64,000 bases of DNA from NCBI RefSeq assembly GCF_900128415.1, contig NZ_LT635772.1, forward strand, positions 620,001 through 684,000, read 5' to 3'. Made by a program: the position numbers and the translations under genes. Of this stretch, positions 2,273-5,236 are shown piece by piece. This DNA is from Anaerococcus mediterraneensis (GTDB lineage Bacteria > Bacillota > Clostridia > Tissierellales > Peptoniphilaceae). The first letter of the stretch is position 1, and every line of letters begins with the position of its first letter. A model generated the notes under the pieces. It ran no database searches. It was not told where the DNA came from and worked only from the letters and a program-made list of their open reading frames with translations.

Positions 2273-2364
2273 ATCACTAGGTTCGGTTGAAATCAGGAGC
2301 TTTTTCCAAGGATTTTATATTTTTTAGTATAATCTTAGGGCTTTTTATAAAAGAAGAAATAAAA

Positions 2365-2393
2365 AAAACCAGGAGCTTTTCTCCTGGTTTTTT
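2365..2393. terminator. Bidirectional terminator between convergent genes
   Basis: A perfect stem (AAAACCAGGAG with CTCCTGGTTTT, loop CTTTT) is flanked by A and T runs on both sides. It can stop the Gate-domain gene from the left and the lar operon from the right. Confidence 0.85.
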
Positions 2394-2457: not shown

Positions 2458-2880
2458 TCACTCCCTAGCCAAGGTCTTGATTAGGTCCAAAGCATCTTTT
2501 AGGGTCATTTTTTCATTTTCTGCTAATTTTTTGGCTGATTCGTATTCTGGATAGGTAAAAACCTCATCCTTGAAGCTCACTTGCTTTGCATAGTAGTCTT
2601 TATTTTTGTAGGTGATTTTTTTCATAGTCCTAGGCAGGGTCGTCCTTTCTAGGTCAAATTTTCTAAGTCCAATAGAAGTTGTCTCTCTAAAGATTATATC
2701 CTCGATTTTTTCTTCATCTTCTGCCTTGTAGATGACAGAAAGTTTGTAGGCTGGGCGGTTTTTTTTCATAAAAATCGGTGTGAAATAAGTATCGAGAGCC
2801 ACAGCCATCAGTTTTTCCATGGCAAAACCCAAAATCTCGCCAGTCGCATCGTCTATATTGGTTTCAAGGAGTTTTACAGT
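2458..2880 (-). CDS. larC: LarC C-terminal part (LarC2), reached by frameshift
   Basis: This frame encodes the C-terminal domain of LarC, the CTP-dependent nickel insertase that completes the nickel-pincer nucleotide cofactor. Conserved LarC residues start before the first in-frame ATG. Decoding from base 2880 gives TVKLLETNIDDATGEILGF, which then continues as FTPIFMKKNRP and ends in LARE. The conserved ETNIDD block therefore only joins the protein if ribosomes arrive from the larC1 frame. An internal start at 2832 would drop that block. The family's usual length of about 400 residues is restored when both parts are joined. Confidence 0.85.
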   Translation of the reverse strand, partial: TVKLLETNIDDATGEILGFAMEKLMAVALDTYFTPIFMKKNRPAYKLSVIYKAEDEEKIEDIIFRETTSIGLRKFDLERTTLPRTMKKITYKNKDYYAKQVSFKDEVFTYPEYESAKKLAENEKMTLKDALDLIKTLARE

Positions 2881-2891
2881 TTTTTTTTATC
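2874..2891 (-). other. larC: Probable -1 ribosomal frameshift site in larC
   Basis: On the coding strand the larC1 frame ends GAT AAA AAA AAA CTG TAA. Slipping back one base on the nine-adenine run reads ACT GTA AAA CTC CTT GAA, which is the conserved LarC2 sequence. The run contains the slippery heptamer pattern A AAA AAA, two codons before the zero-frame stop. A programmed frameshift joining larC1 and larC2 is known in Lactobacillus plantarum. A sequencing or assembly error in the homopolymer is the alternative. Confidence 0.75.
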
Positions 2892-3645: not shown

Positions 3646-4398
3646 TTATTTCCCTTCTATAAGTCTATTTATCTGGCAGGCCTGGTAGGCTGCTCCGTAA
3701 CCATTATCTATATTTACTATGCTGATCCCCTCAGCACAGGAGTTTACCATAGAAAGTAGGGCAGATATACCGCCAAGGCTTGCCCCGTAGCCAACAGAAG
3801 TAGGTACTCCTATGATTGGCTTGTCAACGAGCCCCGCAAGGACTGTGGCAAGGGCTGCCTCCATACCGGCTATAGCTATTATGACATTGGCTTTTTTTAT
3901 ATCCTCAATTTGATCCAGGAGCCTGTGGATGCCGGCAACTCCTACATCCCTGTAGGTTTTGACATTAGCTCCTAGAAACCTCGCTGTGATCTCTGCCTCA
4001 AGGCTTACCGGCAAGTCGCTAGTTCCTGCTGAGACTATGGCGATTTCTCCTATAGGATTTTTATCCTTTTTAAAATCCAAACTTATGATCCCGGCCAGGT
4101 CATTAAAGGTCACTTCTCCTATTTGGTTTTTTACAAGGTCAAACTGCCTGCGACTGGCCCTAGTGCCGATTACCGATTGGTTTTTCTCATAAAAGGCCCT
4201 AAAGATTTTGACCAAAGAACTATCGTCCTTGCCCTGGCAAAAAATCGCCTCGGGAAAGCCCCTTCTTTTTTTCCTAGAAAAATCAAGCTTGGCTATCCCA
4301 TCTAGACTTTGGTAGGTCTTATTATCCAAAATATCTAGGGCATCTTTTTCGCTGATCTCTCCACTTTTTATCAGGCTAATAAGTTTTTTATTGTCCAT
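3646..4398 (-). CDS. larB: LarB, pyridinium-3,5-biscarboxylic acid mononucleotide synthase
   Basis: LarB carboxylates nicotinic acid adenine dinucleotide and releases AMP, making the biscarboxylated precursor of the nickel-pincer cofactor. The 250 residues have an N-terminal helical region (1-90) and a C-terminal half of the AIR-carboxylase/PurE fold. Visible landmarks are SAGTSDLPVSLEAEITA, DVGVAGIHRLL, AIAGMEAALATVLAGL and GVPTSVGYGASLGG. The ATG overlaps the end of larE by 11 bases, which implies translational coupling. The length is normal for the family. Confidence 0.95.
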   Translation of the reverse strand: MDNKKLISLIKSGEISEKDALDILDNKTYQSLDGIAKLDFSRKKRRGFPEAIFCQGKDDSSLVKIFRAFYEKNQSVIGTRASRRQFDLVKNQIGEVTFNDLAGIISLDFKKDKNPIGEIAIVSAGTSDLPVSLEAEITARFLGANVKTYRDVGVAGIHRLLDQIEDIKKANVIIAIAGMEAALATVLAGLVDKPIIGVPTSVGYGASLGGISALLSMVNSCAEGISIVNIDNGYGAAYQACQINRLIEGK

Positions 4399-5236
4399 CT
4401 AGCTGCCACCTTTTTTTATCATCATCACTGAGCTTTTCATCCATAGATCCAGACCTAAAACCCTCTAGGTCCAAGGTAATATAGGAAAAACCCAGGTCTT
4501 TGAGAGTTTTTATGATCTTATTTTTATTATCTATTATTATTTTAAAGTCTTCTGGCAAAATTTCAATCCTGGCAAGGCCCTTGTGGTCCCTAAGTCTGAG
4601 GTTTTTAAAAGCAAAAGTTTTTAGAAACTTCTCCCCCTGGTCAACTCTCCTTAGTTTTTCATAATCTATGGTATCTCCATAGGCAAACCTGGTCAAAAGA
4701 CAAGGGGCAGATGGTTTTTTGGCTACACTTATACCAAGCTCCCCTGCCAAGGATCTCACATCTTTTTTGTCAAAACCTGCCTCCTTTAGGGGAGAGATAA
4801 CACCTAGGTCTCTGAGAGCAACAAGGCCTGGCCTATAAACCTTGTAGTCATCTGTATTTGTCCCATCAATGACATGGGCAAAAGAAAATTCGTCTTTTAA
4901 TTCTATAGCCTTAGAAAAAAGCATTTTTTTGCAGTGGTAGCACCTGTCCTTGGCATTGGTTTTTATATTTGGATCTGTAAGTATATCTACTTCTTTGACT
5001 ATAAAATCAACACCAAAGTCCCTGGCAAGAGATTTTGCATTTTCTAATTCCTCATCAGTAGTTGATAGGCTCTTAAAAAAAACAGCCTTTATGTTTTTTC
5101 TTAGGTCTTTATTGCTACTTGCAATCTTTAAAATAAGGGCCGAATCAACTCCGCCAGAGAAGGCCAAGATGACCTTATCCTCTAGGAGAGTTTCTATAAT
5201 TTGATATAATTTGTATTTTTTTTCATCAAAATTCAT
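4388..5236 (-). CDS. larE: LarE, ATP-dependent sulfur transferase for the nickel-pincer cofactor
   Basis: LarE activates the carboxylates of the mononucleotide precursor with ATP and replaces them with sulfur. The PP-loop SGGVDS lies at residues 27-32. Cys179 in KPSAPCL aligns by context with the sacrificial Cys176 of the L. plantarum enzyme. Two more cysteines (99 and 102, CYHC) are present, so I cannot exclude a cluster-bearing variant from sequence alone. It is the first gene of the lar operon. Upstream lie a TTTACA/TTATAT promoter-like pair and two palindromes described separately. Confidence 0.93.
   Translation of the reverse strand: MNFDEKKYKLYQIIETLLEDKVILAFSGGVDSALILKIASSNKDLRKNIKAVFFKSLSTTDEELENAKSLARDFGVDFIVKEVDILTDPNIKTNAKDRCYHCKKMLFSKAIELKDEFSFAHVIDGTNTDDYKVYRPGLVALRDLGVISPLKEAGFDKKDVRSLAGELGISVAKKPSAPCLLTRFAYGDTIDYEKLRRVDQGEKFLKTFAFKNLRLRDHKGLARIEILPEDFKIIIDNKNKIIKTLKDLGFSYITLDLEGFRSGSMDEKLSDDDKKRWQLDGQ

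Follow-up and report, generated by a model that had tools for sequence, protein, structure and literature searches.

Probable programmed slippage on a nine-adenine run between the two halves of larC in Anaerococcus and other bacteria

How might a cell obtain a whole LarC protein from a gene that is written in two reading frames? The question is raised by a locus of Anaerococcus mediterraneensis in the window, by which we mean the whole stretch of 64,000 nucleotides that was analysed (contig NZ_LT635772.1, positions 620,001 to 684,000). Three genes are transcribed there from the minus strand in the order larE, larB, larC, the last running from 3644 to 2458 (Table 1); larE is presumed to share an operon with larB and larC. 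Between 2874 and 2891 the minus strand reads GAT AAA AAA AAA CTG TAA, with GAT at 2889-2891, CTG at 2877-2879 and the run of nine adenines (A9) in codon phase 0. The initial annotation stated that the zero frame ends in KDKKKL and a stop, and that LarC continues in the -1 frame. Both can be read at this place. The last codons of the LarC1 ORF are AAA GAT AAA AAA AAA CTG TAA (C-terminus ...EKDKKKL*); the -1 frame across the junction is ...TVKLLETNIDDATGEILG..., it is open as far as 2458, and LarC2 starts after the run with TVKLLETNIDD.

Table 1. Features of the larC locus (positions in the window)
Feature	Position	Strand	Basis
larE, upstream of larB and overlapping it	4388..5236	-	TIGR00268, 280.4 bits
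larB, directly upstream of larC	3646..4398	-	NF033503, 289.2 bits
larC1, zero-frame ORF, LarC N-terminal domain, 256 aa	2874..3644	-	TIGR00299 and 12bi match
A9 slippery run, linker between two LarC domains	2880..2888	-	sequence; common to 16/16 split Anaerococcus genes
LarC1 stop TAA, codon 2 past the run	2874..2876	-	ORF reading
larC2, open region in the -1 frame, LarC C-terminal domain	2458..2886	-	NF052512 and 6bwo/12bi matches
Terminator-like hairpin past larC	2363..2393	-	consensus match; 3 such sites in the region against 3.3 expected from shuffles

Each half is recognizable in its own right. The LarC1 ORF reaches 195.5 bits with NCBIfam TIGR00299 (cut-off 90) and the LarC2 ORF 101.3 bits with NF052512 (cut-off 50). 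In Pfam both halves belong to PF01969, which we take to be the family formerly named DUF111, LarC1 covering profile positions 1-236 and LarC2 positions 260-373 of 375. Among solved LarC structures, LarC1 matches residues 22-250 of 12bi, and LarC2 matches 6bwo and residues 287-401 of 12bi. The fused larC product of another Anaerococcus (L014) aligns to 12bi across the junction, which sits between two domains. With both domains above their curated cut-offs and with larB and larE present, we regard the gene as a member of the LarC family. Between 2000 and 5700 of the window no Rfam element reaches its gathering score.

Homopolymers are error-prone, and a misread or misassembled run, or a gene in decay, might also give such a split. 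Of 31 Anaerococcus genomes searched in full, 17 have larC, and in 16 of these 17 the gene is split at exactly nine adenines. In all 16 the run lies in the same codon phase with a T just before it, the stop is the second codon past it and LarC2 follows in the -1 frame, while the codons on either side of the run vary. Sequencing or assembly error is ruled out by the occurrence of the same run and the same second-codon stop in 16 species-level genomes; decay is ruled out by LarC2 frames that are still open and conserved in relatives. We therefore give these readings practically no weight. The initial annotation had named, as a finding that would count against it, a close relative with eight or ten adenines and one continuous frame. 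One such relative exists: L014 has ten adenines (A10) at the same site and a single larC frame. The alignment of larC junctions across the genus otherwise bears the annotation out, and with a single exception in 17 the pattern of a split at A9 still stands.

Does the pattern extend beyond the genus? A search of the family and order gave a larC match in 94 of 249 genomes. A further 80 loci, the best 80 of 585, came from genome contig records. In a sample of the phylum, 227 of 398 genomes had a match, and 38 of the matches listed were picked for a short open frame; as this sample was picked in that way, its fused genes stand outside the run counts. Removal of five duplicates reduced 215 loci to 210 distinct ones: 105 fused, 61 split (LarC2 next to LarC1 but in a different frame) and 44 in which LarC1 has no LarC2 beside it, all of them counts over related rows that are not independent. 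One locus, L199, was classed as split in one pass and as LarC1-only in a later one. Across the 61 split genes the longest adenine run at the junction is A9 in 51, A10 in five, A11 in two and shorter in three, which means that 58 of 61 carry A9-A11. The three rows off the pattern, kept in the 61, are L082 (A8, a +1 shift, in one draft genome), L134 (A7, lying inside LarC2; this split is probably an error) and L179 (A3, with a gap between the ORFs and without a long run). A run of nine or more is present in eight of the 105 fused genes, and the ends of the 44 LarC1-only genes have no run above seven.

Runs of this length are confined to the junction in these genes. Outside the junction, the 58 split genes with A9-A11 comprise 71,084 nt of coding sequence (G+C 24-61%), in which there are 63 runs of A7 and 40 of A8, and none of nine or more; in 23 of the 58 an A8 is found in the conserved MKKNRP codons of LarC2. 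Since there are 40 A8 runs but no longer ones outside the junction, A8 appears to be tolerated within larC and nine looks like a threshold. The available text of Baranov et al. (2005, PMC1088944) states that in a large proportion of bacterial genomes nine is the length from which runs of A and T are visibly selected against. Even L204, the gene with the highest G+C of the 58 (61%), has A9. In the window genome, too, the run at the junction is more than chance would give, both strands of its 2.08 Mb together holding 34 runs of at least nine adenines (from 44 overlapping matches). The threshold is not absolute there, because A9 runs are present in other open frames as well. Those at 305034, 824953, 1136448, 1327705, 1420469, 1612715 and 1743613, among others, lie in the sense of open frames of at least 70 codons. 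Possibly they are further slippage sites, or the frames are not genes.

We consider it probable, from comparison of sequences, that the A9 run in larC is a programmed slip site and that slippage on it, mainly during transcription, yields both LarC1 and full LarC. RNA polymerase would add, and sometimes drop, adenines as it passes over the run, and the lar operon would give rise to mixed larC mRNAs. Those with the unslipped nine adenines would be translated into LarC1 alone. One adenine more would bring LarC2 into frame and produce full-length LarC, the protein that inserts nickel into the nickel-pincer nucleotide cofactor in a CTP-dependent reaction. The run encodes the linker between the domains, where a few lysines extra or fewer should be tolerated. 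On this view most slips would be made by RNA polymerase and fewer by the ribosome, and slippage would set the ratio of LarC1 to LarC.

The chief alternative is that the ribosome slips. Pairs of tRNA-Lys would move one base back on A_AAA_AAA and some of the ribosomes would go on to make LarC. All 58 split junctions with at least nine adenines do hold this heptamer in phase, and the shift required is -1 in 55 of them. Antonov et al. (2013, PMC3711429) measured shifting of as much as 39% for DUF111 cassettes in E. coli, in an assay whose description there does not tell the two mechanisms apart. The run is in phase 0 in 33 of the 58 genes, in phase 1 in six and in phase 2 in 19, and to offer the ribosome its heptamer a run needs at least nine adenines in phase 0, eight in phase 1 and seven in phase 2. 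Since nine is thus the minimum in the 33 genes of phase 0, the window alone cannot separate the two mechanisms. In phases 1 and 2, where eight or seven adenines would suffice, 26 split genes have a run of at least seven, and in 25 of them it nevertheless reaches nine or more (the exception being L082 with its A8). Elsewhere in the same 58 genes there are 34 in-phase A_AAA_AAA heptamers, all in runs of seven or eight, with no known shift.

The direction of the shift can be considered in the same way. Three of the 58 genes with A9 or longer (L183, L200 and L207, the last two being two species of one genus) need +1, and a -1 ribosomal shift cannot supply it; no single direction holds across the family. 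According to a rule given in the available text of Antonov et al. (2013, PMC3711429), the occurrence of both directions within one function points to transcription. This evidence is unevenly spread: the three are among 20 split genes of the phylum sample, and the loci from the order and the named genomes alone need -1 in 40 of 41 split genes, for which sample the same rule would suggest ribosomal frameshifting. At the family level, then, three phases and both directions are found, with a strong bias in direction (55 against 3).

Nor do the 58 genes show an enrichment of the signals that stimulate -1 ribosomal frameshifting. On average the 70 nt downstream do not fold better than shuffled sequences (mean z 0.05, for pseudoknot-free folds); z is below -2 in two of the 58, the lowest being -3.79 in L068, and in the window it is -0.48 and 0.08, no better than shuffles. 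Shine-Dalgarno-like motifs are present in 11 of 58, against 15, 13, 24, 22 and 7 in shifted windows. Transcriptional slippage is the better fit because the length of the run is kept, because it occurs in three phases with a few shifts in the opposite direction, and because stimulators are not enriched. Hence we regard a chiefly ribosomal mechanism as unlikely, though ribosomes may add to slippage. The initial annotation described a -1 shift at a slippery run. The conserved and functional -1 transition from LarC1 to LarC2 at A9 agrees with our comparison; what the family keeps, however, is the length of the run and not one in-phase heptamer.

Both mechanisms have known counterparts. Thermus thermophilus dnaX, like larC, has nine adenines on the sense strand. 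In the available text of Baranov et al. (2005, PMC1088944), transcriptional slippage on these nine adenines gives mRNAs of differing adenine number and hence two proteins, one long and one short, with about 50% of the product short. The unslipped frame encodes the full-length product in T. thermophilus dnaX and the short one in the window, whereas larC has both arrangements across genomes. In E. coli dnaX downstream structure and a Shine-Dalgarno element act as stimulators of frameshifting. Its heptamer A_AAA_AAG resembles the window larC in being A-rich and in phase and in directing a -1 shift with a short and a long product (PMC3711429, in the text available). The larC family differs in its longer run, in a phase that is not fixed family-wide and in having no enriched structure or Shine-Dalgarno signal.

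The closest precedent is larC itself. Antonov et al. (2013, PMC3711429) describe in their available text a cluster of frame-shifted DUF111 genes which, like the window larC, consist of two ORFs joined by a frame shift and have fused homologues in other genomes; that text leaves the mechanism for DUF111 unsettled, and their main text makes no mention of Anaerococcus. Frameshifting in DUF111 was therefore already reported in 2013, and what is added here is the mechanism and the spread. In a literature search that had most subscription journals outside its coverage, this was the only report on a larC or DUF111 frame shift among the best matches, and no paper assigning larC to transcriptional slippage was found. 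A figure legend names larC1 and larC2 of L. plantarum as two genes (PMC3496567, in its available text). The available text of two papers on lar contains no word starting with "frame" (mBio 2024) and no "frameshift" (Sci Rep 2020), and "DUF111" and "larC" are absent from the first 300,000 characters of a 2016 review on recoding. The enzyme number given for larC2 of Anaerobutyricum is presumably that of the synthase step, LarB. That gene may therefore not be LarC2, and we set aside as evidence the proteome report on Anaerobutyricum larC1 and larC2 (PMC7702098).

If slippage during transcription is the reason for the run, then fused genes might carry it too, and some do. Six fused larC genes of the order have A9 at the same site in one frame (L019, L021, L025, L071, L072 and L074) and two have A10 (L014 and L108). 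In these eight of 105 the unslipped product is full-length LarC and a slip on the run would make the short form, the arrangement of Thermus dnaX. On a tree of LarC1 (FastTree, 210 rows) the run must have been gained or lost 18 times, in at least 12 cases because well-supported branches force it. Among the genes that carry the run, its arrangement (whether split or fused, and in which phase, length and direction) changes 17 times. These changes suggest that what persists is the run, not the frame. Stops close to the run in the slipped frame of the fused A9 and A10 genes are weak as a signature of selection, since a stop within three codons is just as common a sight in controls (32 of 87, a set without the fused genes whose longest run is six to eight).

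On the reading that we favour, selection would hold the run and not the frame, and the cell would have both LarC1 and LarC regardless of which one is made without a slip. A stronger version, that the run is kept for the sake of LarC1 and LarC together, that genomes drift between short and long unslipped forms and that LarC1 has a role of its own in making or releasing the cofactor, is in our view a tentative suggestion with slightly less than an even chance of being right. It would require that LarC1 alone has a use.

Could the length of the run itself be switched during replication? In such phase variation cells would alternate between a split (A9) and a fused (A10) larC. The fused L014 is 92.0% identical to its split relative L010 over 1127 aligned positions, and plasmids of Lactobacillaceae offer a closer comparison. 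Thirteen of the 14 plasmid records listed have the same larC (L250, L251 and L254-L264); the fourteenth, L249, has a fused larC without the run. Eleven are from Lacticaseibacillus paracasei, seven with A11 and one frame and four with A10 and two frames, two of the four being one plasmid deposited twice, and all have identical flanks over 700 nt upstream and 400 nt downstream. The two records from L. plantarum plasmids have A10 with 99.4-99.6% identity upstream and 99.5% downstream. Like the window gene, the split (A10) copies on these Lactiplantibacillus and Lacticaseibacillus plasmids have an immediate stop and need -1; unlike it, the plasmid run is A10 or A11 in phase 1 and some copies with identical flanks are fused.

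Since A10 and A11 are found between identical flanks, the length of the run seems to change in DNA with both forms occurring, which suggests that heritable changes take place outside Anaerococcus, on the L. paracasei plasmids, even though single records may carry a sequencing error. For Anaerococcus the case is weak because 16 of 17 species, each represented by one genome, have exactly A9. The same length is found in 51 of the 58 split genes with A9 or longer, and LarC is an enzyme of internal metabolism rather than part of the cell surface. Phase variation as the explanation of the split is very unlikely, and in Anaerococcus the run is unlikely to serve mainly as a heritable switch. The initial annotation had allowed for on/off switching by slippage in replication or in transcription; the three phases and both directions favour slippage in transcription, and the uniform A9 of the genus goes against a switch in replication there.

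Another possibility is that no joining takes place. LarC2 might be a separate protein, made by ribosomes that re-initiate past the stop of LarC1, with the halves working in trans. In the stretch that leads from the run to the conserved NIDD motif of LarC2 there is an ATG in 12 of the 58 split genes and a GTG or TTG in seven, but none of these 19 starts is preceded by a Shine-Dalgarno-like motif, and the remaining 39 genes, that of the window included, have no start codon there at all. Some genomes do encode the halves apart, the only LarC1 and LarC2 found in G591, G314 and G516 being at separate places, and in Paenibacillus cellulositrophicus LarC1 and LarC2 lie side by side as two ORFs with no long run of adenines. 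Because LarC1 and LarC2 are encoded apart or in reversed order in some genomes, separate halves can exist; the conserved A9 is still left unexplained. We consider re-initiation very improbable for the split genes with the run.

Separate arrangements take several forms. One LarC1 and one stand-alone LarC2 (an open frame of 151-181 aa) are found at separate places in G591, G314, G516, G385 and G643; the distance is about 640 kb in G591, and the two are on different contigs in the other four. In G539 and G518, among others, there is a LarC1-only gene and a LarC2 inside a long open frame elsewhere. At L053, L054, L055 and L096 the gene order is reversed, with a LarC2-like ORF upstream of LarC1, and the LarC2 matches of these genomes are at these places.

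If programmed slippage by RNA polymerase on the run is the correct reading, larC would join the few documented examples in ordinary bacterial metabolic genes. In a survey of 108 genomes slippage was found mostly in insertion sequences, according to the available text of Baranov et al. (2005, PMC1088944). The gene would also constitute a widespread natural replicate test, with three codon phases, two directions and both short-first and long-first forms. A functional LarC may then stand in annotations as a pair of genes, and LarC1 by itself may be of importance for the biosynthesis of the nickel-pincer cofactor.

A few observations on the genomes themselves can be added. The window genome has larB, larC and larE and no match to LarA (PF09861); a LarA match is present in 13 of the 17 Anaerococcus genomes with larC and absent from four. 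The LarC1 of L005 clusters in the tree with those of L003 and L011, and its DNA past the A run resembles that of L006, L010 and L013; recombination at the run is possible. Lastly, positions 2120-2290 of the window are a piece of a dispersed repeat with 23 matches in the genome, itself included, and with a cluster of them near 523.6-524.3 kb.
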